DNA of 64,000 bases. It comes from Thermogemmatispora carboxidivorans (GTDB lineage: Bacteria > Chloroflexota > Ktedonobacteria > Ktedonobacterales > Ktedonobacteraceae). Below the pieces are notes generated by a model. The model was not told the origin of the DNA, did not search any database, and was given only the letters and a program-made list of their open reading frames with translations. Every line of letters begins with the position of its first letter. Position 1 is the stretch's first letter. Positions 8,526 through 23,681 of this stretch are shown here, in pieces. The position numbers and the translations under genes were made by a program. The stretch is taken from positions 62,001 to 126,000 of the forward strand of contig NZ_JNIM01000001.1 in assembly GCF_000702505.1 (NCBI RefSeq), written 5' to 3'.

Positions 8526-8554
8526 TCGACTTTGTCCTCGTGCTCGGGTATAAT
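8526..8554 (+). promoter_or_regulatory. Promoter of the radical SAM gene
   Basis: TCGACT, a 17-base spacer, then a perfect TATAAT at 8549-8554. It lies about 130 bases before the radical SAM start codon. Confidence 0.55.
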
Positions 8555-8681
8555 GAAGAAGATCTTGAACAAATATTCGATTTATTGTCAACTTGTACGA
8601 TCGGCCACGGAGGAGCCGCAGGCTCTGGGGGGGGAGGGATGGAGGCGGCCAGGGGCGCTACCACAAGGAGAGCACTCTACG

Positions 8682-10139
8682 ATGACGCAGCAGATAACGT
8701 GTGAAAAAGAGGGCATGCTGGGGGAGCCGTCGATGCTCCGACGGCTGGCGGAGATTGATCTGGTGGTCCTGGATGCTGCCGTGGCCAGTGGCGTGGCGGG
8801 GGAGCGGGCGACTCGCCTGCTGGCGAATCGCCGCCGGCTGGCGCCGGCGCGTCCCGCTCACCTGCTGCTGCACGCCCACAGTCGGCAGGAAGAAGAGCAG
8901 GCGAGTGCTGCCGCGGGGCACCTGGCGCCGCTGGTGGCAGCGGTCCATCTGCGGCGCCTCGGCAGTCGGAGCGAGGTGGCACGCGAGGCGCTGACGCTGC
9001 ATCGGCAGCTCTGGCCCGCCGAGGACGAGGCGCGGCGCAAGGCTCGTCTCCTCCTGCTCATTCGGCGCGGCGGGGCCGGCACCCCGCAGTTCATTGCCCC
9101 CTTTGTCGGCGGGGCTGGCACGACCTGTGGGGTCTGGACGCCGATTGTAGCCTACCGTCGGGGCCGCCAGACCTGGATCGCCGGCACCCGCTCCCGCGAG
9201 GAGGAGCGGGAGGCCGAACCGATTCGCGGCTTCCTGCGGGGCAACTACGCGCAGGGCGTCTGCCCGGTCGAATGCAGCTTCTGCTACCTGCGTGGCCTGC
9301 AGGGGATGGGCCTCAAGAGCGTGGCGCTCAATCTGGAAGACGTCATCCCCGAGCTGGACCGTCTGCCGCGGGGCAGTGTGGTCAACTGGGCGGAACTGGG
9401 CGGGCCTGTCGAGGAAGATCCCTGGTTCGTCGATGCGCAGGGGCGCGGCTCGCTGGTGCAGACCATTCTGGATCTCTCCAGCGCGCGCGGGATCGTCTCC
9501 TTCTTCCTGACCAAGGGGGTCTACGAGCCCTACCTGCAGCTCGATGGCCGGCTGGCCCTCGTGGCGATCAGTCTGAACCCGGCGGCTATCTCGGCGCAGT
9601 TTGAGCCAGGTGGTGCCCCACCGGAGGCCCGCCTGCGTGGGCTGGCCTGGGCCATTGAGCATGGAGCCCTGGACCATACGATCCGGCTGGGACCGATCAT
9701 TCCAGTGGCCGGCTACCGCCGAGCCTACCACGAGCTGTTTGCGCAGATCGGCGACATCCTGGGGCCGCGGCTCAAGCGGATGACTGTGGACATTCTGCGC
9801 TTCTCGCCGCAGATGCCGCGGCTGCTCAAGGCGAGCTTGCCCGAGGAGCAGGTGGCGCCCTTGCTCGCTGAGCTGGAGCCGGAGGTGGTGGCACACAAGT
9901 ATCGCCCATCGGCGGCGCGGCAGCAGCGGCTCTACCACTGGGTGCGGCTGCTCTTGGAGCGCTACGGACTGGGGCAGGTGCAAACCACTCCCTGCAAGGC
10001 GGACCCACGGGAGGCCCTGCAGTTCCTCAAAGCCGGGGTGATCAGCAGCATGCCCTGCGCCTGCCACATCAGCTATCGCCTCCGTGCTCAGCTACAACGC
10101 AGCCCGCTTCCTATCATCAATCACACTCTACAGGAGTAG
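8682..10139 (+). CDS. Radical SAM protein, spore-photoproduct-lyase-like
   Basis: A 485-residue protein. The radical SAM cluster motif is CPVECSFC (Cys194, Cys198, Cys201), followed by YLRG as in the SPL family. Downstream motifs (SFFLTKGVYEPYL, ISLNPAAISAQFEPG, LGPIIPVAGYRRAYHELFAQIG, RFSPQM) also follow the SPL-like layout. About 190 residues precede the motif, much of it Arg/Ala/Leu-rich and unrecognised. Three further cysteines near the C-terminus (438, 459, 461) could bind a second cluster. The ATG at 8682 follows AGGAG by 11 bases. The next gene downstream is a TcmP homologue, a family known to be genetically paired with Cys-motif proteins, so the two probably work together. The substrate is unknown; repair of DNA photoproducts is only one option. 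Confidence 0.75.
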   Translation: MTQQITCEKEGMLGEPSMLRRLAEIDLVVLDAAVASGVAGERATRLLANRRRLAPARPAHLLLHAHSRQEEEQASAAAGHLAPLVAAVHLRRLGSRSEVAREALTLHRQLWPAEDEARRKARLLLLIRRGGAGTPQFIAPFVGGAGTTCGVWTPIVAYRRGRQTWIAGTRSREEEREAEPIRGFLRGNYAQGVCPVECSFCYLRGLQGMGLKSVALNLEDVIPELDRLPRGSVVNWAELGGPVEEDPWFVDAQGRGSLVQTILDLSSARGIVSFFLTKGVYEPYLQLDGRLALVAISLNPAAISAQFEPGGAPPEARLRGLAWAIEHGALDHTIRLGPIIPVAGYRRAYHELFAQIGDILGPRLKRMTVDILRFSPQMPRLLKASLPEEQVAPLLAELEPEVVAHKYRPSAARQQRLYHWVRLLLERYGLGQVQTTPCKADPREALQFLKAGVISSMPCACHISYRLRAQLQRSPLPIINHTLQE

Positions 10140-10177
10140 CATTTTAATGCTCGCTTGATTATCTTAGGAGATTTCAC

Positions 10178-10206
10178 TTGCCAAAGAACCTTTCATTGGG
10201 TATACT
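10178..10206 (+). promoter_or_regulatory. Promoter of tcmP-like gene
   Basis: TTGCCA, a 17-base spacer, then TATACT. It lies in an AT-rich patch just after the radical SAM gene and would give a leader of about 195 bases before the TcmP start. Confidence 0.6.
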
Positions 10207-10408
10207 CTGATAAGGATGTATAAAACTGATAGTGCGATTTGTTTATTAAAAAATTGAAGATCCGGAGAGTGGTGCAAGCTCTGATCTCGGCGTGTAGCGC
10301 GTGTCTTGCTGTCACCAAAGAGCCTGGGCCTGGTTGACTGGTTGAGGAGGGTGGCGTTGCTAGCCTTGTCCTGGAGACGGCCAGAAGCGGCGAGCTAGAA
10401 AGGAGCGC

Positions 10409-11506
10409 ATGATGGCTCCGCAGTCAGTGATCTGGAAGCTGGATGATCACACGCGTGCGAAACACATTATTCTGCGCAAATACCTGGATGCCTGGCTCCC
10501 TATCCTCATCCGTGAGGGGAGAAGCGGGTTGCTGATCGATGGTTTTGCTGGTCCGGGGGAGTATGTCGGAGGAGAAATCGGCTCACCGCTCCTGATGATC
10601 AACGCCTATCAGCTGCATCGCGCGGAATCTCTCCGACGGGGTAGAGTGAAATTCCTCTTTGTGGAGCTTGATCCAAGGCGCGCGGCTCATCTTCGGCAGA
10701 AGCTCCAGGCCCATCTGCAGCGCCAGCCGCTGCCCGCCACCGCGACCTACGAGGTATATACGGGCAGATTTGTAGACGCAATGACCAATCTTCTGGCTGG
10801 CGGCTGCAGGCACTATGATGCTATGTTTGTCTTTATCGATCCATTTGGCTTCTCCCATGCACCTATGGATGTTATTCGCAACCTGATGGGCTGCCCTCGC
10901 TGTGAGGTCTTGATCACCTTCATGTATCAGGAAATCAATCGCTTTCTGGAAGCTGTTTACAGGACCAAGCGGCAGCACTATGACGCGCTCTTCGGCACTC
11001 CCGCATGGCAAATGCTGCTCCTGGACGCCCCTGATGTCCAGACGCGTCAGCGGCGCCTGCATGACCTCTATCGTCAGCAGCTTTTGACTGTCGCAGGCGC
11101 TCGCTACGTGCGCTCATTCTGTATGCGTGATAGGAAGAACACGACCGATTATTTTCTCTTCTTTGCTACAAAGCATCGCCGAGGCATGCAAGAGATGAAG
11201 CGGGCGATGTGGAAGGTTGACCCAACAGGCAACTTCGTTTTCTCTGACTGCACAGGCCTGGAACAGGGCTTCTTGCTCCAGAATGATGATCCAGAAATCC
11301 TGGCCACGCTGCTCTATGAGCATTTCAGAGGGCACCAAGTGACTATAGATGAAATTGAAGAATTCGTTATGGCCGATACCCCCTTTTTCAAGTACAAGTC
11401 GAGCCTGAAACTCCTGGAGGATAGACAGCAGATTGTGGTCTGTGGTGAGGAGGGGCGGAGGAAAGGCACCTACAAGGACCCTACGCTCCTGATCTATTTC
11501 CGCTAA
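10409..11506 (+). CDS. tcmP: Three-Cys-motif partner protein TcmP
   Basis: A 365-residue protein recognised as TcmP. The N-terminal block HTRAKHIILRKYLDAW and the nucleotide-binding-like loop DGFAGPG (residues 44-50) are followed by FVELDPRRAAHLRQKL and FVFIDPFGFS (around 142-149). The arrangement suggests a Rossmann-type, possibly methyltransferase-related fold. Two start codons are in tandem; the second ATG (10412) has better spacing from AGGAG. TcmP genes are typically beside a Cys-motif, radical SAM-like partner, here the gene ending 269 bases upstream. No enzymatic activity is established. Context with a possible DNA-modification operon 3 kb away leaves a defence role open. Confidence 0.82.
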   Translation: MMAPQSVIWKLDDHTRAKHIILRKYLDAWLPILIREGRSGLLIDGFAGPGEYVGGEIGSPLLMINAYQLHRAESLRRGRVKFLFVELDPRRAAHLRQKLQAHLQRQPLPATATYEVYTGRFVDAMTNLLAGGCRHYDAMFVFIDPFGFSHAPMDVIRNLMGCPRCEVLITFMYQEINRFLEAVYRTKRQHYDALFGTPAWQMLLLDAPDVQTRQRRLHDLYRQQLLTVAGARYVRSFCMRDRKNTTDYFLFFATKHRRGMQEMKRAMWKVDPTGNFVFSDCTGLEQGFLLQNDDPEILATLLYEHFRGHQVTIDEIEEFVMADTPFFKYKSSLKLLEDRQQIVVCGEEGRRKGTYKDPTLLIYFR

Positions 11507-13821: not shown

Positions 13822-14301
13822 GAGCCTGGGAAGAGAGTGCGCCGTGTGAGGAAGCGGAAGCAACCAGGAGGGAGGGAGCGAACCGGTACTTTCGGGAGTA
13901 TTCTGTCAGCTGTCGGGGGGTGGCGCGTGTCCTCCATATAGGAGAGACGCAGAACAGCGGAATTTCCTGCTTGCTTATCTACTCAGGTAATCGGATCTCC
14001 CGTTATCTGAGAGGGCAAGCCCCAAGGGGGAGATCGATTGTGTTTGCAGCGACCGCGCCACCGATCTGGCTGAAAGAGAAGCTTCCTCGGTTGGTTTGCC
14101 CACGCTGTGCCGCCCGTCAAAGGGCGGCTGTAGCCGAATCGTCTCAGCAAGCTCACATGCGAGTAATACCTTCGGAGGGCAATGCTTCTAGTGGCCTCGG
14201 TGGCTCTAGCGACTTAGCGCATAGGCGGCAGAGGCAATCTGAGGGTGAGGGGTGAGCCAGCTCTCCTGATCTCACCTGGCAGGATTGTGCTCTCGCACCT
14301 T

Positions 14302-14361
14302 CCAGCCGTCCGGGAAAGCTCTGGCTCTTGAGGTAGAGCCAGCTGTCGATCGGACGGCTGG
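14302..14361 (+). ncRNA. 60-base compound stem-loop, possible terminator or small RNA
   Basis: Outer arms CCAGCCGTCCG and CGGACGGCTGG pair perfectly over 11 bp. Inside, 14317-14328 pairs with 14335-14344 (GGCTCT/AGAGCC core plus AGCT/AGCT) with a two-base bulge around the loop TGAGGT. The bases after it read GATTTTGTG, a short T run. It lies 480 bases past the oxidoreductase gene, rather far for a simple terminator. Confidence 0.4.
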
Positions 14362-14647
14362 ATTTTGTGTGCAATACTGGGCAGTCTGGTCCTGGCCTGG
14401 CGTTGGTGGGGTCATGCTCGCCATGTGCCCTTCCCCCCTTGATGAGGGAACCAGGTAAGCTGCGCATTGGTAATAAGTAAGGCTCTTGCCCCCACGGCGA
14501 GAGCAACTGGCTAATCTCTAGAGGGTGTATAAGTGGCAATCGCTGGCAGGGCAGGCGTGAGGCTGCTCAGTTCAAAAAGAATCTGGAAGGTTGGGGGGTA
14601 TTGCCATCGATATGTGAGGAGCAAGTGACTCGAAAAGGCAGAGCAGC

Positions 14648-14676
14648 TTGCTTTTTCAAAGAGAACGAAGTATACT
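14648..14676 (+). promoter_or_regulatory. Promoter of the transglycosylase-helicase operon
   Basis: TTGCTT, a 17-base spacer, then TATACT, inside a locally AT-rich stretch that includes TTTTTAAAAA. Transcription would begin near 14683, about 60 bases ahead of the first gene. Confidence 0.55.
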
Positions 14677-14746
14677 TATTTTTAAAAAGTAGCCTCTAAA
14701 GTCGGAGGAAACTGAAGGCCATCCTCAGAAAGGAGAGCCTGCCTTT

Positions 14747-16642
14747 TTGCACAAATATGAGGGTGAAGATGAGAAGAGCATGACCACTGTGGGATTCCGC
14801 GGCTGCCGCGAGAGGGGTCCACGTTCTGGGTATTTTCAGCTCAACGAAGGCGATGTGGAGACGCCAGCGCTCTTTCCTGTCGCTTCCCTGATCACAGGCA
14901 CCACGCCGCGCGGAGGAGGGATCTGGAAATATGTGCTGCAGGCCCATCCCCAGGGGCTGCTGCGGCAGAACAGGCCCATCATGACCCAGGTCCTCCACTT
15001 CCTGGATTTTTCCCTTCGGCCCAAGTGGCTGGCTTTTTGGCGGCAGCGTCCCTTGCGCGAGCACTATCAGGCCGCCTTTCCTGAGCTGCACTATCGGGCG
15101 CCCCTCTTCTGTGACTCTGGAGGCTTCCGGCTGCTGTGGAACAGTCAGCTCGACCTCTCGCGCTATGGGTTGGAAGCCACGCCGCAGACCATTCTGCGCT
15201 TACAGCAGGATTTCGGGGCCAGTCTTCTCGCGACCCTCGATTATCCCTTGCCACCCGGACTGGTGCGCGCAGAGGCCGAGGCGCGCATGGCGCGCAGCCT
15301 GGCCAATGTGGGGATCACCCTGCGCCTGCTGGCGGAGCAGCCCGGCCCTCCCCCGTTCGTGTATGCGGCGGTCCACGGGCAGACCCCCGACGACCTGCGC
15401 CACTCGGTACAGCGTGTCTTTGCGCTGCGCGAGGCCGAGGGGCTGCAGCGCATCCCGCTGGGGATTGCCATCGGCTCGCTGGTCCCGCTTCGCCTGCGGG
15501 GGGCCGAGAAGCTGCTGACCCTGATCGACCTGGTGCAGGCCGCCATCGAGGGCATTCCGGCAGCCGAGCGGCCCACGACCCCAGTGCACCTGTTTGGGGT
15601 CACAGGCAATCTGATTCCTCTCCTCGTCTATCTGGGGATCGATACCTTTGATTCGAGCACCTACGTGCAGATGGCGCGCAGCCTCCGCTATCACGATCCC
15701 GTCAGGCATCGCTTTGTGCCGGTCCTGGAGTTACAAGAGCGGACCTGCGACTGCCCGGTGTGTCAGACCAGCTCGCTTGCGGAGCTGCAGGCGGGGCTGA
15801 CCTCCCTCACCCCGGCGGGTCGCCCATTAGAGAATGGGGCCTATAAGAGCCGCTATTATGCCGAGGTGGCCCTGCACAACCTGGAGCAAGACCTCCGTCT
15901 GGTGGAGGAAGTGCGTCAGGCGGTGGCAGCAGACGCCCTGGCGGACTTCCTGCTGCGCTGGGTGGAGGGACAGGAGCGCCTCCGAGAGGCGCTGGCCCAC
16001 CTGCAGCAGCGAGACGAGCGCTTGCGCCGGCTCGGCTCGCGGCGTTCGTTTGCTCTGGCCAGTCAGCCCAGCTTGCCGGTGGGGACCGGGAGCGGTCGAC
16101 CCGTCTCCCTGGCCTACACCCCCGAGGCGTTCAACATTGTCAGCAATGGCTATGCGCCGCCGGCGGACAAGCGGGTGTTGCTGGTGTTGCCCTGTTCGGG
16201 AGAGAAACCCTATTCGCAGTCGCGCACGCACCGCTACGTCAGAGAGCGGCTGCAGGCGGCGCTGGGTGAGCAGCTGGACGGCATTCACTGGGTAACGCTC
16301 TCGGGCCTGTATGGGCCGGTGCCCGAGGAGTGGGAGCAGGTCCCCGAAGTGCTGGGCTACGACTTCCGGTTGGAGGGAAGCAACCAGCCACAAATCGAGC
16401 TGGTGGCCGGGCGGCTGACCCGCTATCTGGAGCGCTGGGGAGAGCACTACGTGGCCTGCCTGGGGTATGCGACGAGTCGAGCCTATCGGCAGGCGATGGA
16501 GCTGGCGGCGCGCCGCACGGGCCGGCTGGAGGTGCTGCCCTGCAAACCGAAAGCCCGTCGACTGACCGAATTCTTTCGCCGGGAGCATCTGGAACAGCTC
16601 GTGGCCTCCATTCTCATGCAGCTGGAACAGGGAGACCGCTAG
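14747..16642 (+). CDS. DpdA-like 7-deazaguanine transglycosylase fused to ArcS-like domain
   Basis: A 631-residue two-domain protein. Residues 20-390 are a tRNA-guanine-transglycosylase fold. They contain the DSGGF motif (Asp123, general base position), FDSSTYVQMAR with Asp302 at the nucleophile position, and a complete zinc site Cys334, Cys336, Cys339, His377. So it should be active in base exchange, swapping guanine for preQ0 or a relative. Residues 470-630 match the archaeosine-synthase (ArcS/DUF5591-like) core: PCSGEKPYS with Cys483 and Lys487, SRTH, LSGLYGPVPEEW, and YDFRLEG. The PUA domain that lets archaeal enzymes hold tRNA is absent. Linkage to a helicase and a nuclease-like gene favours DNA rather than tRNA as target, like DpdA. 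The TTG at 14747 has AGGAGA ten bases upstream; an ATG at 14780 (620 residues) is the alternative start. Confidence 0.8.
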   Translation: MHKYEGEDEKSMTTVGFRGCRERGPRSGYFQLNEGDVETPALFPVASLITGTTPRGGGIWKYVLQAHPQGLLRQNRPIMTQVLHFLDFSLRPKWLAFWRQRPLREHYQAAFPELHYRAPLFCDSGGFRLLWNSQLDLSRYGLEATPQTILRLQQDFGASLLATLDYPLPPGLVRAEAEARMARSLANVGITLRLLAEQPGPPPFVYAAVHGQTPDDLRHSVQRVFALREAEGLQRIPLGIAIGSLVPLRLRGAEKLLTLIDLVQAAIEGIPAAERPTTPVHLFGVTGNLIPLLVYLGIDTFDSSTYVQMARSLRYHDPVRHRFVPVLELQERTCDCPVCQTSSLAELQAGLTSLTPAGRPLENGAYKSRYYAEVALHNLEQDLRLVEEVRQAVAADALADFLLRWVEGQERLREALAHLQQRDERLRRLGSRRSFALASQPSLPVGTGSGRPVSLAYTPEAFNIVSNGYAPPADKRVLLVLPCSGEKPYSQSRTHRYVRERLQAALGEQLDGIHWVTLSGLYGPVPEEWEQVPEVLGYDFRLEGSNQPQIELVAGRLTRYLERWGEHYVACLGYATSRAYRQAMELAARRTGRLEVLPCKPKARRLTEFFRREHLEQLVASILMQLEQGDR

Positions 16643-16662
16643 TCGTTGGAAAGGAGAAGACC

Positions 16663-19600
16663 ATGTCCTCCTATGAGGAGATGCGGGACCTGCTTCAGGA
16701 TATGGTGCGAGATATCATAACCGCTCGCGATTTTCCCCCGCCAAACCTGCTCTGGGAACGCTATCATCAGCGTATAGAACCTCTCTGTAAGAGGGAAGAG
16801 CTGAGGGAGGAATTCGTTGCTCTGGGAGGAGACATTTTTTTGCCTCGGGCGATAGAGCTTGTTCGTCCTCTGAAGCAGCTCCGACAGCGCTTCAGTGCTT
16901 TGGGACCGTCGAGACCACTGGTGGAGCACATGCGCATGGAAGCGCTGGTAAGGCGGCGACCGCCGCGCGATCTTCGCCTGGAAGATCTGACGGGAGAGCT
17001 TGGGGCGATCGCTCAGCTCTTGAAGGCCAGTGAGGAGGAGCAGCGGCATCAGGACAGTAGCCCTGCCGCTAAAGAAGGAGAACTCCGAGTCTCCACTTTC
17101 CAAGTCGAGGGCTGGGAGAAGGCGCTGCAGGTCATTCGCCATAGTCAGGGTATGGTGATTACTGCTCCCACAGGCAGCGGTAAAACTGAGGTTTTCTTGC
17201 TGCCTATTATCTATGAGATTACTCGCCAATTGGCGAAAAAAGTACCTGCCAATCAGGTGCCGCGCTTCGTTCTGCTCTATCCGCGAGTCGCCTTGCTGAA
17301 GGACCAGCTGGAGCGGGTCCTGCGCTATGTGTATCGTGCCGAATTGGAAATAAGCCAAAAGAGCATGTGGGGCGAGGTTTTCCATCCTGAAAGGGGGCGC
17401 ATCACGATAGGTTTTCAGTTTGGTGGGGTGGGACCGGACCCCGAGTCTGCCCTTGAAAATAGTGAAATCTTTGAAAGTCGTACATTCATATATATAGATA
17501 AATGTGTGATTTGTAAAAAAGGAAGTTATGAATTGAAGTCTGTAAAATACAATAAAAGAAAGAATACATTGTTGAAATGTAATAACTGTGGGGCAAATTT
17601 CCATGTCTCTATTGGGAGAAACTACCATGCCGACCTGATGCCGCATCTACTGATTACAACTGCTGAGTCTTTTGACCAAATATCTGTATATCCTCTGGAG
17701 AAATTTGAGAATTACATTAAGTCGATAACGGGTATTGTCCTTGATGAGGCTCACGTCTATCACTCAATCTACGGGGCGCATATCCATCACATGCTGAGGC
17801 GCCTTGAGGAACTCAGAGGCGGTCAAGCACTCGCCAAGTTAGCAGCAAGTGCAACTATTCTTGAGCCTGAGAGGTTTGCCGCCAGCTTATTCTATGGAGA
17901 GAAGTCTGACCAGCTTGTTGTGCACAAGGCTGAAGATGGCAGCAGCGTACCGACGGGTCTCGAACTGCTCTATGTCTTGCAGAAACCCGAAGAGCAGGTG
18001 GAGGCCTCTTCCTTACTGATTCAGGCAGTGATGGCTGTGGGTCATGCTCTGCTCAGGGGAGAGGGACGAAGTACTGTCTTCTGCGATTCCCTTGACATGG
18101 TCGGCAGATTCCATGCGCAGATCAGCGATGCCGAAGAGCAGCGCCGGCTCTGGTCATTTCGCTGTAACCTGGAACAGCTCTGCTTCAACCAGCGTCGGTG
18201 TCCGCGTACAGTTCCAGCCTCGTGTCGCGTCTATGAGCAGGGCGAGTGCTGGCGTGGCCTGCCTGCTGGCGAGCAGTGTACCAACGAACTTCCTGATCTG
18301 CATATGCAACCATTGAAAATAGTGGAAGTTACATCTAAGGCTAAAGCTACTTATCACGACGAGGATATTATACTAGCTACGGCGGCTTTTGAGATTGGCG
18401 TTGATGATAGTCGTATTCAAGCGGTTATCCAGTATCTTATTCCTCACACCCTATTTTCCTTTATTCAGAGGCGTGGCCGGGCTGGTCGGGGCTGGCGCTC
18501 GACTGCCTATAGTATGCTGGTCTTGGATACCTCTCCGATTAGCCATTTCTACCTCCGCCATTACAGGCGGCTGATCGAGGGCAGCTACGAGCTGCCGCTC
18601 AAGACTGACAATCCTGTTATCTCCGCAATACATGGTATCATCTCAAGAAAGCGGAAGGAATTAGCTGCCTATACCTCTCTGCACAAGGTTGAGAAAGGAT
18701 TACTGCAATGGATATGGAACAATATTAGTAATTGTGGCATAATTAAGCATTATTATGGAGATGAATTAATTAATTATGGCGATGCCTCTTTAGAGGAAAA
18801 GGTAAAATTCTTAAAAGAGTGGATAAACACTAATAAAATAGAATTGGAGCACAAATTAGGGCTAAAATCGCTCATAGATCGTATAGAAGATGAGATATGT
18901 ACGTTGGAAGAGACTGCCCGTTTGAGCCTGGATTTCTTGAAGCAGGAAGGTTCCTCCTCTGAGGAGATCTCGAAACGTTTCCTGGAAATAGATAATTATC
19001 TATCTAATATCTTGTACAATACTAAGGACAAATATACAATTGAAAAAATTTCATATATAACGAGAAAAATGGCTTATTTATGGAAAAATATTGCTGATAA
19101 TGATACGAATAATTTTAGTGATGTGGAAAGGTTGTATAAATTCTTTTTTAAACTGGGAGAGCTTTTTAAGGATAAGAGAATCCTTCGCTACCCACCTGAG
19201 GCTATGAAAATTGTGCTGCAGGCTAGCTTCTATCTCCACCTGGACGATACTAGTGACAGCGCTTGCACTTACAGAGTGGAGTACCTCTTGCCAGAGGGTT
19301 ATTTCCTGGCCACAAAGCCAATTCTTGTCAATGCCAGCCTGGCTAGAGGGGAGGGAGTAGAGCCTGAAACCAAGGTTGAGCTAGAGAACATCGGCGTACT
19401 TGCTAATGCGCTCATTCCTTACAGGACGCTCTATCGCTACTACGCTCGTCATATCTCAACCATAGACGTTGTCCCTCTCCCTGAGAGAAGTAGCGACCAG
19501 GAAATCACAATTCGGCTTCGAGGGGCTGAGGGGTTGCATCACGCTGAGTTTTTCGCGCCATATAAGGTCTCTGTAAGAACGTTAGAGACGGATAAGCAAG

Positions 19601-20721
19601 GGCAGCAGGTCGTTAAGATGTGCGAGCAGTGTCGCATGATTTATAGTATAAGTCGTACACGCCACTGCTGTGACTCGCAGCTTCGTTACGTAACGTTGCA
19701 GGCATCTCCAGTGATCAAGCGCAGCTACGCGGTTGGCCCTGCAGAGCGACGACTCACTTTCTCCCTCAGTCTTCTTAAGACCATGAAAGGCGTGACGATG
19801 GTCGAAGGGGCGGAGGTTTCCGCGCGTCGGATGCTCCCGGAAGCCAACGGGCACTATGTTCCGCAAAAGAGGCCACCGCTCTCCTTCCTGGCTCGCTATG
19901 AGATCCCCCTGCGCTACGACCTCACCACTGATGGGATTCGCTGGCAGCTTCAGCATCTCGTCACGACGCTACTCGCTGATCAGCAGCTCCAGCGGGAGCT
20001 TGGCCAGATCAAGGTACAAGGGCAGCTCAAGCATCTGGACAGCGAGCTGATTCTCCATACCGCTGCTCATATGCTCTACAAAACTATTGCCACTATAAGT
20101 GGCGTCAATGAGCAGGCACTGGAGTACTGGTATGATGTCCAGCGGTGTGAGGTAGTTGTCTGGGAAGGCTATGAGGGCGGCACTGGACTCTCGGAGGTGT
20201 TTGCCCATGCCCTGAAAACGCGACCGAAGGAAGTCTACCAGGCCTTGCTGGCTTGTGTACTTTGCCCGATTCACCTGGCAGAGGATCCCCAGCAGCCGAT
20301 AGAGCCAGGCTGGCGTGAGGAGCTGGGGCGCAGTTGGCTGGTGTCCTCAGAGCCCATGAACCCCCTGTCCCAAACGTTGTCGAGACAGATGGTTCTCGAT
20401 CAGATTGCTGACGAGGCAGAATGGACCCGTCAGCATAGCTCTGGCCGGCTTGCAGATGACGAGAGCAGCAAACTCTCCTGCTATACACATGATGGCTGTC
20501 CCGTCTGTATCTATGTCACGACCTGCTGTCGAGGACGCTACAGACAAGCGCCATATGTCAGTCGCCGTGTGGGGGAAGCCCTTTTACGGCAGCTGCTACG
20601 CCGTACCTCACGGAGCGAGGTTGATCAGCTACACGCTGACGCGGCCCGTCTGGGACTGGAAACTGTGGCTTGCTGGCCACTGGATCGTCAAGGACGGGAG
20701 TGGGCGCTCTTCCTTCTCTAA
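16663..20721 (+). CDS. DEAH-box superfamily 2 helicase with zinc ribbon and DUF1998-like C-terminus (DpdJ/DrmA/MrfA-like)
   Basis: A 1352-residue helicase starting at the ATG at 16663 with AAGGAGA just upstream, 20 bases after the transglycosylase. Walker A TAPTGSGKT is near residue 167, DEAH near 360, SATI follows, and motif VI QRRGRAGRG is near 602. A four-cysteine zinc ribbon (CVIC near 281, CNNC near 306) is inserted between motifs I and II. A second Cys pair lies near 987. The end looks like DUF1998: WEGYEGGTGLSE near 1167, LACVLC near 1196 and a Cys cluster HDGCPVC...CC near 1273-1290. Such helicases occur in Dpd, DISARM (DrmA) and repair (MrfA). Two stretches (about 17460-17720 and 18690-19200) are much more AT-rich than the surroundings, which suggests foreign origin. 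It probably moves along DNA to inspect or restrict unmodified DNA. Confidence 0.82.
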   Translation: MSSYEEMRDLLQDMVRDIITARDFPPPNLLWERYHQRIEPLCKREELREEFVALGGDIFLPRAIELVRPLKQLRQRFSALGPSRPLVEHMRMEALVRRRPPRDLRLEDLTGELGAIAQLLKASEEEQRHQDSSPAAKEGELRVSTFQVEGWEKALQVIRHSQGMVITAPTGSGKTEVFLLPIIYEITRQLAKKVPANQVPRFVLLYPRVALLKDQLERVLRYVYRAELEISQKSMWGEVFHPERGRITIGFQFGGVGPDPESALENSEIFESRTFIYIDKCVICKKGSYELKSVKYNKRKNTLLKCNNCGANFHVSIGRNYHADLMPHLLITTAESFDQISVYPLEKFENYIKSITGIVLDEAHVYHSIYGAHIHHMLRRLEELRGGQALAKLAASATILEPERFAASLFYGEKSDQLVVHKAEDGSSVPTGLELLYVLQKPEEQVEASSLLIQAVMAVGHALLRGEGRSTVFCDSLDMVGRFHAQISDAEEQRRLWSFRCNLEQLCFNQRRCPRTVPASCRVYEQGECWRGLPAGEQCTNELPDLHMQPLKIVEVTSKAKATYHDEDIILATAAFEIGVDDSRIQAVIQYLIPHTLFSFIQRRGRAGRGWRSTAYSMLVLDTSPISHFYLRHYRRLIEGSYELPLKTDNPVISAIHGIISRKRKELAAYTSLHKVEKGLLQWIWNNISNCGIIKHYYGDELINYGDASLEEKVKFLKEWINTNKIELEHKLGLKSLIDRIEDEICTLEETARLSLDFLKQEGSSSEEISKRFLEIDNYLSNILYNTKDKYTIEKISYITRKMAYLWKNIADNDTNNFSDVERLYKFFFKLGELFKDKRILRYPPEAMKIVLQASFYLHLDDTSDSACTYRVEYLLPEGYFLATKPILVNASLARGEGVEPETKVELENIGVLANALIPYRTLYRYYARHISTIDVVPLPERSSDQEITIRLRGAEGLHHAEFFAPYKVSVRTLETDKQGQQVVKMCEQCRMIYSISRTRHCCDSQLRYVTLQASPVIKRSYAVGPAERRLTFSLSLLKTMKGVTMVEGAEVSARRMLPEANGHYVPQKRPPLSFLARYEIPLRYDLTTDGIRWQLQHLVTTLLADQQLQRELGQIKVQGQLKHLDSELILHTAAHMLYKTIATISGVNEQALEYWYDVQRCEVVVWEGYEGGTGLSEVFAHALKTRPKEVYQALLACVLCPIHLAEDPQQPIEPGWREELGRSWLVSSEPMNPLSQTLSRQMVLDQIADEAEWTRQHSSGRLADDESSKLSCYTHDGCPVCIYVTTCCRGRYRQAPYVSRRVGEALLRQLLRRTSRSEVDQLHADAARLGLETVACWPLDRQGREWALFLL

Positions 20722-20754
20722 AGTCGCCTGATAGGTCAGGATAGGAGTTGAGCC

Positions 20755-21318
20755 ATGGCAACTGAAGAGAGGGCCGACCTTTTCTCCCCTATTTCACCCT
20801 CGTCTCCTACACCCTCGATGATGCCAGAGGCCCATCGCGCCGAGGAGCTCAGCCTGGCATATGTCCTGGCTCTTGCCGCCAAAGCTGGCGTCAATTACTC
20901 GCTCCTGAAGAGAGATTACGGCATCGACATCTCTTTTCGTAGGCCAAGGATCATTGACGGCGAGATCGATGATAGTGGCAGCATGATGGTAGATGCGCAA
21001 TTGAAAGCCTCGCGCAACTACCGCCTGAAAGGAGACTATATCGTCTATGATCTCCCTGCAAAAAATTATCGCAAGCTCGTGAATAGCATCTTTTCTGTTC
21101 TATTACTACTCTGCCTGCCACCAAGTATTGATCACTGGCTCCATCAAAGTGAGGAATGCCTGAGCATCTACAAGTGTTGTTACTACTGGAGGCCCCAGGG
21201 ACATGTTGAAATTGATCAAGTAAGATCTAAAACAATCTATGTTCCTAAAGCGAACCTCTTTACGGAAGCAGTGTTGCTCAGTCTGCTTGATGAGGCGCAA
21301 GCGAAGGTAAGGTTATGA
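20755..21318 (+). CDS. DUF4365 protein, probable PD-(D/E)XK-type nuclease fold
   Basis: A 187-residue protein matching the DUF4365 pattern: EELSLAYVLALAAKAG (Glu30/31), DYGIDISFRRP (Asp58), then VDAQLKAS (Gln82, Lys84), YDLPAKNYRKLV and the late IYVPKANLFTEAVLLSLL. The E...D...QxK series is that of restriction-endonuclease-fold enzymes with Gln in place of the second acidic residue. It follows the helicase by 33 bases with AGGAG before the ATG and ends in an ATGA overlap with the next gene. In the operon it is the best candidate for the cutting activity. Cleavage is not proven, and the fold assignment rests on motif reading. Confidence 0.72.
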   Translation: MATEERADLFSPISPSSPTPSMMPEAHRAEELSLAYVLALAAKAGVNYSLLKRDYGIDISFRRPRIIDGEIDDSGSMMVDAQLKASRNYRLKGDYIVYDLPAKNYRKLVNSIFSVLLLLCLPPSIDHWLHQSEECLSIYKCCYYWRPQGHVEIDQVRSKTIYVPKANLFTEAVLLSLLDEAQAKVRL

Positions 21319-22460
21319 TGCACAGATCGTTAGAGGAGCTCCCGCTTGACCTGGTGAGCATTGCCGACGTGCAGGCTTACCTGCAAGCGCATGACTGGCG
21401 CCAGATCGAGTGCAGCGATCAGCAGCTGCTGGTCTTTGCTGGCCCGCCCAATAAACTAGGTGAGCCGATGCTCATTGCATTGCCCCGTTCGAAGGATCTG
21501 GGAGGTGCCGAGCTGCGCCTGACCGAAGCTCTGCACAGGCTGGCGGAGATTGAGCGTGTGCCTCCAACTACCCTCATTAGCCGCATTCGTGCGGCCAGTG
21601 CTGATGCCATTTACTTGCGCTTGCTTATTGCTCCCTCAGAACTTCCCTCGTTAGAGACTGTGTCTTCCTTCTTGAGCGGCTGCAGAAATCTCGTCACCTT
21701 TTCTGCCTGTATGGAGCTGATAGGACAACGCTATTTCGTCCAGCCAACTGCTACTGCCAGGAGGCTCTCCAAACGTTTTCAATTCGGTCACACCTATCAG
21801 TCGAGCTTCGGTTTTGTATTTCAGGCCCCAGTGACTAGTGAGCAAGGACAGCTGCCGTTTGCTTCCCTGGAGGGATCTCCTGTTCCTCTTGGCAGAAGGG
21901 TAGTCGAGCGGATTACAAGAGGGCTGCTCATGCTTAGCACTGCCGCTCAGTTAGGAGATGATCGACTTCTCGTCGAGCGCTACTCAGAAGGATTGAATGC
22001 CAATATGTGCAGCGCTGTGGCCGAAATGCTCAAAGTAGTTGGTGATACCGCTGTGGAGTACTCTGTTAGCTGGTCACCTCTCTTGTCTGCTCCTAGCGAC
22101 CTCTCTCGTCTCCCTCCCCTGCAACTGCATCGCTCTTCAATTCCCTACCTTGAAAAGGCTGCTCAGCTCCTGCGAGTTGGCCACGAGGGAATCAGTGGAG
22201 AGGAGCAAACCATCACAGGTGTAATCACTGAATTACACTGGGAGGATGCAGAGCGAGGACAGGTGCGCCTGAAAAGCCCTGAACTGGGTACGCTGCACCT
22301 CTCCCTCGAATCCTCCCAGTATGCACTTGCTTGTGATGCTCATCGCGATCGACGCCTTGTCAGCGTGACCGGAACACTGGTACCTACCCCCGGGAAGCGT
22401 AGGAAAATCTGGAACTTACTCTATCCCCGCGATTTTCGGATACTTGAGCAACTGGCTTAG
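21315..22460 (+). CDS. Unrecognised protein with OB-like C-terminal domain, operon partner
   Basis: A 381-residue protein (380 if the second of two tandem ATGs is used). I do not recognise the family. The N-terminal 100 residues look alpha/beta (VQAYLQAHDWRQIE, LLVFAGPPNKLGEPMLIALPR, then ELRLTEALHRLAEIE). The middle is mixed with a long helix-rich part (RVVERITRGLLMLSTAAQLGD, residues 195-215). The last 90 residues alternate beta strands in a pattern like an OB fold: ITGVITELHWED, GQVRLKSPELGTLHLSL, RRLVSVTGTLVP. Its start overlaps the DUF4365 stop, so the two are made together. A role as nucleic-acid-binding or specificity subunit is a guess from this tail. Confidence 0.6.
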   Translation: MMHRSLEELPLDLVSIADVQAYLQAHDWRQIECSDQQLLVFAGPPNKLGEPMLIALPRSKDLGGAELRLTEALHRLAEIERVPPTTLISRIRAASADAIYLRLLIAPSELPSLETVSSFLSGCRNLVTFSACMELIGQRYFVQPTATARRLSKRFQFGHTYQSSFGFVFQAPVTSEQGQLPFASLEGSPVPLGRRVVERITRGLLMLSTAAQLGDDRLLVERYSEGLNANMCSAVAEMLKVVGDTAVEYSVSWSPLLSAPSDLSRLPPLQLHRSSIPYLEKAAQLLRVGHEGISGEEQTITGVITELHWEDAERGQVRLKSPELGTLHLSLESSQYALACDAHRDRRLVSVTGTLVPTPGKRRKIWNLLYPRDFRILEQLA

Positions 22461-22466
22461 TAAGCC

Positions 22467-23681
22467 TCATTTCTGTCCATAGACTACATAATATTGATAC
22501 TCTATTTGCAATATTTCCATCTCTCGATCGATTTCCCGTAAGACGAGATCAAATTGCTTCTCATCAATATTGAGCTGCTGATGTAAAAGCGGGAAAAGAC
22601 CTGGAAAAGTGGCCATCAGGTTCTTCTGCAGCATCACACCCTCGTGGCGACCCCAGGGGCCAACCGGCACGCTCAGCGTCTCTAGACGGACATGGCGCAG
22701 ACCGAGACCCTGGAAAAGGTTGCCAAGACGATCCGCGATGGCTGGATCATAGCCAGCTCGCTTGCTGGCCTGGCGATACCACTCGATGAATAGCCTGAGA
22801 GCGGGACCCGCGTTCACGAAGGTGTCTCCCCCTTCGAATAGCTCGATCCAGCCGCCGGGCGCTGTCACCCGCTGCAACTCTTGCAACAAGAAGGGCCAGC
22901 TTTTCGCTGGAATACCCATTGCAAGCAAACGCTGGTGAACATAGTCAAAGGTATGGGCGGGAAAGGGCAGGCCCTGCAGAACGTTCCCTTGCAAAAAGCT
23001 CACATTCGGCGGCAGCTTCTGCGACGGCGTCGACCACTCCAGATCGATACCATAGACACGCGCCTGGGGAAAAGCCCGCGCCATCTCGATGACCCACCGT
23101 CCTGTACCGCTGCCGACGTCGAGAATCGCCCGCACTCGCTCCTTGTCAAGCGGCGCCAGGTAGTTGCTCTTAAGGACATGCTTCAGGTAGAAGTGCTGGA
23201 AATCAAGTCGATTGGCCTCAACGAGATCCTTCGGCAGCAGATAGTCTGTATCGATCAAGTAGCGCCTGGCGAAAGCCGCGACCTGCGGTGGCTGAGGAAG
23301 CCGGACAGTCGGATACCGCTCTAGCGCCTGTCGCTGGGTGAGCGTACTGCCAGCTCCCACCAGCTCCAGCTGGTCCGTGGCCCTGGGCTGCTGAATCTGT
23401 CCGTTGCCTCCACAGCCTGGCCTGCTTCCAATCGCTACATATTTCACGACGCCGGCGGCCTGCAAGGCCCCAGGAGATGCTGGCCCGAAAGAGGTAGTCG
23501 CTACCGGCCTGACTCGATTTCTGTCTCTCCGAGCCTTCGATGCCTGCTCTGGATGAGCCTCCGTCGGCCCTCGCTCCGCTGCTCCGGTCCCAGCAACTAT
23601 CTGCAATGGCGCCGCTCTCCGCAGCCCGCGCCTTTGACCCTTGCCTTGCCACAACTGCTTCAGCCAATGCAAGATATTCAT
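22467..23681 (-). CDS. Class I SAM-dependent methyltransferase
   Basis: A 404-residue protein. Motif I AILDVGSGTGRW lies near residue 190, followed by VYGIDLEW, VSFLQGNVLQGLPFPAHTFDYVHQRLLAMGIP and RVTAPGGWIELFEGG, the methyltransferase domain order for small-molecule substrates. The first 110 residues are basic, Ala/Arg/Gly-rich and probably disordered. GGGAG precedes the ATG by 11 bases. It is convergent with the defence-like operon, six bases away, with no clear terminator between, so it is probably not part of that system. The substrate is unknown. Confidence 0.85.
   Translation of the reverse strand: MNILHWLKQLWQGKGQRRGLRRAAPLQIVAGTGAAERGPTEAHPEQASKARRDRNRVRPVATTSFGPASPGALQAAGVVKYVAIGSRPGCGGNGQIQQPRATDQLELVGAGSTLTQRQALERYPTVRLPQPPQVAAFARRYLIDTDYLLPKDLVEANRLDFQHFYLKHVLKSNYLAPLDKERVRAILDVGSGTGRWVIEMARAFPQARVYGIDLEWSTPSQKLPPNVSFLQGNVLQGLPFPAHTFDYVHQRLLAMGIPAKSWPFLLQELQRVTAPGGWIELFEGGDTFVNAGPALRLFIEWYRQASKRAGYDPAIADRLGNLFQGLGLRHVRLETLSVPVGPWGRHEGVMLQKNLMATFPGLFPLLHQQLNIDEKQFDLVLREIDREMEILQIEYQYYVVYGQK

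Follow-up and report, generated by a model that had tools for sequence, protein, structure and literature searches.

The window analysed here comprises bases 62001-126000 (64,000 nucleotides) of the 5.6-Mb single-contig genome of Thermogemmatispora carboxidivorans, whose relatives place it in the Ktedonobacteria, with Thermosporothrix and Dictyobacter in the same family; the positions given below are those of the window. It contains four closely packed genes, A through D, all on the + strand. Gene A (14780-16642 from an ATG) encodes a TGT-ArcS protein of 620 residues, assigned by Pfam, NCBIfam and alignment; its open reading frame opens at a TTG at 14747, with AAGGAG just 5' of it, and the ATG at 14780 is an alternative start. 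Gene B (16663-20721, also from an ATG) encodes a helicase of 1352 residues that belongs to the Dpd branch of the YprA family. Gene C (20755-21318) encodes a DUF4365 nuclease of the PD-(D/E)xK type, PDC-M02A in PADLOC, and gene D (21315-22460) the PDC-M02B protein, which has a possible C-terminal OB-like β domain. Gaps of 20 and 33 bases separate A from B and B from C, and C and D overlap by 4 bases. All of the reading frames lie where an earlier note on this DNA had placed them, and its domain assignments for A (TGT plus the ArcS core, DUF5591), B (a DEAD/DEAH helicase) and C (DUF4365) hold.

The genes lie within an 8.3-kb block (14128-22467, +) that is bounded by empty sites in two congeners. 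The sister species G039 carries A-D at the same locus (L022), with 90% DNA identity to the window; the congeners G038 (L145) and G042 (L146) have ~480 bases in place of the block, between syntenic flanking genes of 77-86% identity. Since these two congeners lack the entire block and still have intact flanks, A-D have been gained or lost together, and they behave as one acquired cassette. The ratios of nonsynonymous to synonymous substitution rates between the window and G039 are 0.15 for A, 0.20 for B, 0.09 for C and 0.14 for D, and there are no internal stops; all four genes are therefore under purifying selection. Given these ratios and the joint absence in congeners, the block is more than a chance association.

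The encoded proteins and their relatives

Within A, the TGT domain (15092-15970, +; Pfam E 1e-21) is followed by the ArcS core domain (16139-16504, +; Pfam E 8e-15). The NCBIfam profiles give 99 bits for ArcS (NF040592), below the equivalog cut-off of 440, and 97 bits for TgtA. A has no match at E 0.1 to the DpdA equivalog NF041059 (cut-off 200 bits), against which Nostoc DpdA scores 483 bits. The ArcS core contains the motif PCx3KPYx2Sx2H (PCSGEKPYSQSRTH; 16190-16231, +), which we take to be the ArcS signature and which is also present in Methanolobus ArcS. In all aligned full-length homologues of A, the TGT residues D112, D154 and D291 and the zinc ligands C323, C325, C328 and H366 are kept, as is the signature, with single changes in L025 and L026; in the alignment, Methanolobus ArcS retains the signature, but its D154 and glycine site are lost. 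Judged from these motifs, the A family would carry out both steps of an archaeosine-like pathway. Like euryarchaeal ArcS and ArcTGT, A has the two domains; unlike them, it would keep both catalytic functions in one polypeptide, it is bacterial, and it is accompanied neither by RaSEA nor by PUA, a tRNA-binding domain. Pfam detected no PUA domain in A, and the chain stops ~45 residues past DUF5591, which is too short for one. An AlphaFold model of A (18 family members, pLDDT, the predicted local distance difference test, 83) has the archaeosine tRNA TGT 1j2b as its best PDB match (E 5e-19), and the A-family profile also matches 2q07 (AF0587) across the ArcS-core part. With hhalign, no support was obtained for relating DUF5591 to either DUF6884 or small Dpd genes.

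A survey of ~85,000 species genomes by peptide patterns, a method that may miss members, found full-length relatives of A in Cyanobacteria, Poribacteria, Ktedonobacteria, one Kuenenia metagenome-assembled genome (MAG) and one proteobacterial MAG; two haloarchaeal plasmids add three more. The distribution is patchy (among 400 Chloroflexota genomes, 6 have A, and in one of these it is only a fragment), phage records contain no A, and viral contigs yielded one weak TGT. Across lineages A is the constant part, and the helicase and effectors vary. In Spirulina, A and B are followed by a GmrSD_N plus HEPN_MAE_28990 pair, and C-D are not part of that locus; other cyanobacteria have A with this pair, and the helicase is absent. 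On the Natrinema and Haladaptatus plasmids, a TGT-ArcS gene with both motifs shares its locus with a PLD gene and two helicases, one ARMADA-like and the other of the Dpd branch. This layout corresponds to BRIGADE type I as set out in PMC12458937; the label given to these loci derives from annotation and homology, not from the original authors' tables. In the Ktedonobacteria genome G013 (L024), a DISARM-like locus adjoins A. The idea that A replaces the DISARM methyltransferase there was rejected, because the locus seems to have its own methyltransferase-like gene of 1430 residues (NPPY, by motif only) and A is convergent to it; this locus is a defence-island neighbour of A only.

Three further arrangements were observed in the course of the survey. 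The cyanobacterial operon of TGT-ArcS, GmrSD_N (DUF262) and HEPN_MAE_28990 (L028, L030-L033, L050 and L051) is an apparently undescribed association. An operon of Thermosporothrix hazakensis (L025, 5368-10977) joins TGT-ArcS to a NurA nuclease and a HerA translocase, and in Poribacteria MAGs (L042, 6533-11833; L038) a PLD-SNF2 helicase (HKD+Snf2 in PADLOC) lies directly 5' of TGT-ArcS.

Gene B encodes a superfamily 2 core with a Walker A motif at residue 171 and DEAH at 361, and it matches YprA in the PDB (6znp, E 4e-11). A zinc-binding insert (CxxC...CxxC; 17503-17589, +) lies in RecA1, as is reported for Dpd and DISARM helicases in PMC12458937. Further downstream is a DUF1998/MZB-type cluster of four cysteines (C-x5-C-x2-C-x5-C; 20479-20526, +), which is largely common to the Spirulina homologue; according to the same paper, such a cluster is lost in canonical Dpd. 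The DUF1998-like end proposed for B in the earlier note is thus upheld by the cysteines and the YprA match, whereas the Pfam MZB/DUF1998 match is weak (E 0.074) and below cut-off. Likeness to DpdJ extends over the N-terminal half (PADLOC DpdJ E 6e-64), and against the DpdJ equivalog NF041067 B reaches 198 bits, below the cut-off of 800. In a tree of 17 relatives, B groups with its Spirulina homologue and next with the Dpd-branch helicases of the Natrinema and Haladaptatus plasmids (93/98), and it falls outside the DpdJ clade. Alignment of its C-terminal half with DrmB by hhalign gave no support for a relationship.

The active site of C is intact, with E30, D58 and D80-x-Q82-x-K84 invariant, and Pfam detected no modified-base reader domain in it. 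PADLOC scores C as PDC-M02A with 166 bits and D as PDC-M02B with 813 bits, adjacent and in PDC-M02 order; the literature searched does not name PDC-M02. For D, neither a PDB profile search nor a fold search with a model built from its sequence alone gave a match, and it was not found in viral contigs. The strand order at its C-terminus is compatible with an OB fold, as had been suggested for its tail, although only in a model whose confidence there is <50.

A proposed modification-restriction system and its alternatives

Of the known systems, BRIGADE is a Dpd/ARMADA hybrid, which PMC12458937 reports only from halophilic archaea. The haloarchaeal TGT-ArcS is of the same family as A (34-36% identity over the full length), B has the type I Dpd-branch YprA feature, as the 93/98 grouping indicates, and PD-(D/E)xK nucleases such as C are sometimes used in BRIGADE. 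However, BRIGADE has two YprA helicases, and the cassette has one, without the ARMADA-like YprA; it also lacks a PLD gene, comprises only four genes and resides in a bacterium. Where BRIGADE has a 7-deazaguanine cluster, the cassette has the homologous TGT-ArcS without preQ0 genes, which sit elsewhere in the host. With Dpd the cassette shares a TGT enzyme, a DpdJ-like helicase, the 7-deazaguanine logic and the fusion of TGT to a second domain, which is found in some Dpd. The Nostoc plasmid DpdA, from a canonical Dpd system, is fused to an N-terminal YaaA-like domain; DpdC belongs to the YaaA family (PMC12839542), and the fusion can be regarded as a parallel, independent way to couple insertion to conversion. 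In contrast to Dpd, A has no DpdA match, B is below the DpdJ cut-off, and an ArcS core is present in A where Dpd has DpdC. As the earlier note had remarked of dpdB, dpdC and dpdD-dpdK, the canonical partners (dpdB, C, D-I and K) are absent, as are preQ0 genes: the cassette holds A-D only, and its flanks are common to the empty-site genomes. C and D are both components of PADLOC PDC-M02 in the same order, and here they lie directly 3' of a modification enzyme and a helicase. BREX-related capture likewise recruits a TGT as the presumed self-marking enzyme (PMC12839542), but its PglZ, BrxC, HerA and GNAT are not in this cassette. The best reading of these comparisons is that the cassette is related to BRIGADE and Dpd, fails defining features of both and is a new variant. 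The earlier description, a reduced or new type, fits the lack of canonical partners; A and B, however, group with haloarchaeal BRIGADE-like components and not with DpdA and DpdJ.

Taken together, the analysis argues, with a probability of about 0.6, that the four genes form a small modification-restriction system based on 7-deazaguanine, that its effectors can be exchanged, and that it belongs to neither canonical Dpd nor BRIGADE. A would take preQ0 from the chromosomal queuosine pathway of the host, which has a cluster of QueC, QueF and a Vut_1 (YhhQ-type) transporter as well as PTPS/QueD proteins and a QueE-like protein. In the DNA of the cell itself, the TGT domain would put preQ0 in the place of guanines; the ArcS domain would then join the nitrile of preQ0 to a nitrogen donor (ammonia/glutamine or lysine), so that the exchange becomes irreversible and the product is deoxyarchaeosine or a preQ0-amino-acid adduct. 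B, as a YprA/DpdJ-like helicase-translocase with zinc modules, may inspect or unwind DNA and license attack where the mark is missing; C, together with its partner D, would then cut. A minimal modification-restriction system had been proposed in the earlier note, and the TGT-ArcS protein with its catalytic residues, the Dpd-branch helicase, the intact nuclease and the single cassette agree with it; C-D, however, are not specific to such a system, and modification and cutting of DNA are steps that we infer. The presence of A next to defence genes in several lineages (Spirulina, Thermosporothrix and Poribacteria) also favors this interpretation. If it is correct, BRIGADE-like base-exchange immunity exists in bacteria in a testable four-gene size, one bifunctional writer connects the archaeosine pathway of archaea with both Dpd and BRIGADE, and a core of writer and helicase is joined by exchangeable effector pairs.

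Several points weigh against a modification-restriction system. The chemistry of every member of the A family is a prediction from sequence. RaSEA (TIGR01210) has no match in the window genome, although archaeal genomes, searched as a control, do give one; without it the ArcS domain of A may do nothing, in which case preQ0 would stay unconverted. A consensus scan gave no σ70-like promoter 5' of A or between any of the four genes, so the single promoter claimed earlier is putative. The exact A-B-C-D set is known from only two sister species of one genus, at one locus. The C-D pair is also found without A-B in Rhizobium p3 (where a different helicase locus is next to it), Pusillibacter and the Ktedonobacteria genome G028. 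C-D are accordingly a stand-alone, separately mobile candidate defence pair, PDC-M02, that is not specific to A-B and may be an independent passenger in the cassette. This, together with the occurrence of A-B without C-D in Spirulina, suggests an alternative in which the cassette holds two independent defence modules, A-B with its effector elsewhere or with none, and C-D as a stand-alone nuclease. Such an arrangement is possible but doubtful: only 33 bases, with no promoter-like site found in them, separate B from C, the two-gene effector of Spirulina is also directly 3' of B, and all four genes are jointly present or absent across the genus.

A second alternative holds that A is a tRNA enzyme, making archaeosine-like bases in bacterial tRNA, and that its neighbors are unrelated defence genes. 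Archaeal TGT and ArcS do act on tRNA, and the best PDB match noted above is an archaeosine tRNA TGT. However, Tgt, QueA and QueF already serve queuosine formation in the host, A is found among defence or phage replication genes and its presence is patchy. Because there is no room for PUA, because of these host enzymes and because a copy of A resides in a phage-like element (see below), DNA is favored over tRNA as the probable substrate, and a tRNA role is quite unlikely. Equally improbable is a type IV-like scheme in which B-C-D attack foreign modified DNA and A makes a tolerated host mark or one that blocks other systems. In its favor, A is accompanied in cyanobacteria by GmrSD_N proteins, which belong to a family of modification-dependent restriction; against it, C is a DUF4365 PD-(D/E)xK protein in which no modified-base reader was detected and Dpd-branch helicases belong to systems thought to restrict unmodified DNA.

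The product of A and mobile copies of its gene

In Thermococcus kodakarensis, ArcS moves lysine onto preQ0 in RNA fragments and even onto a nucleotide; the lysine adduct stops the reverse exchange, and RaSEA then yields archaeosine (PMC11298593). This ArcS works only when complexed with RaSEA, and the Methanocaldococcus jannaschii enzyme takes ammonia, glutamine or asparagine (PMC11298593). Given these chemistries and a genome in which RaSEA was not detected, the product of A could be deoxyarchaeosine (dG+, if ammonia is the donor), an adduct with lysine or, with an idle ArcS domain, preQ0 itself, and which of these an ArcS domain without RaSEA makes is a directly testable chemical question. 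A radical-SAM gene in the window (8532-10139) was considered as a RaSEA substitute and rejected; it lies in the flank that is shared with the empty-site genomes and adjoins TcmP.

The integrated phage-like element of G039 (L023, G039:C29, 2606-15195) carries a second TGT-ArcS gene, 90% identical to A. This copy lies between a primase-DNA polymerase gene (family A, primase-PolA) and a DNA methyltransferase gene, with a serine-type integrase near and a DUF3987 primase in the element; in G038 only a 3' fragment of A is found, in a related element. A copy in such a position makes sense as protection of the element's own DNA, and anti-restriction by wearing the host mark is possible. Since RaSEA was not detected in the genome, the self mark could be a 7-deazaguanine that bears an amino acid, a DNA base that is not described in the literature examined. 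An extended proposal, which we regard as speculative and rather unlikely, makes A a writer complete in a single protein, which would place preQ0 in genomic DNA and then attach lysine, or some other amine, to it. Restriction modules would be interchangeable around this writer, and phage-like elements having A alone would wear its mark.

Two minor observations concern the same genome. Besides the host's own Tgt, a second Tgt-like paralogue (L134, 5637-6809; genome 1390.6-1391.8 kb) adjoins a DinG-like helicase-exonuclease. Upstream of the cassette, window positions 8532-11506 contain the radical-SAM gene, which is spore-photoproduct-lyase-like, followed by the three-Cys-motif partner TcmP (PADLOC candidate PDC-M30A, E 4e-64); this second possible defence pair is partly deleted in G038.

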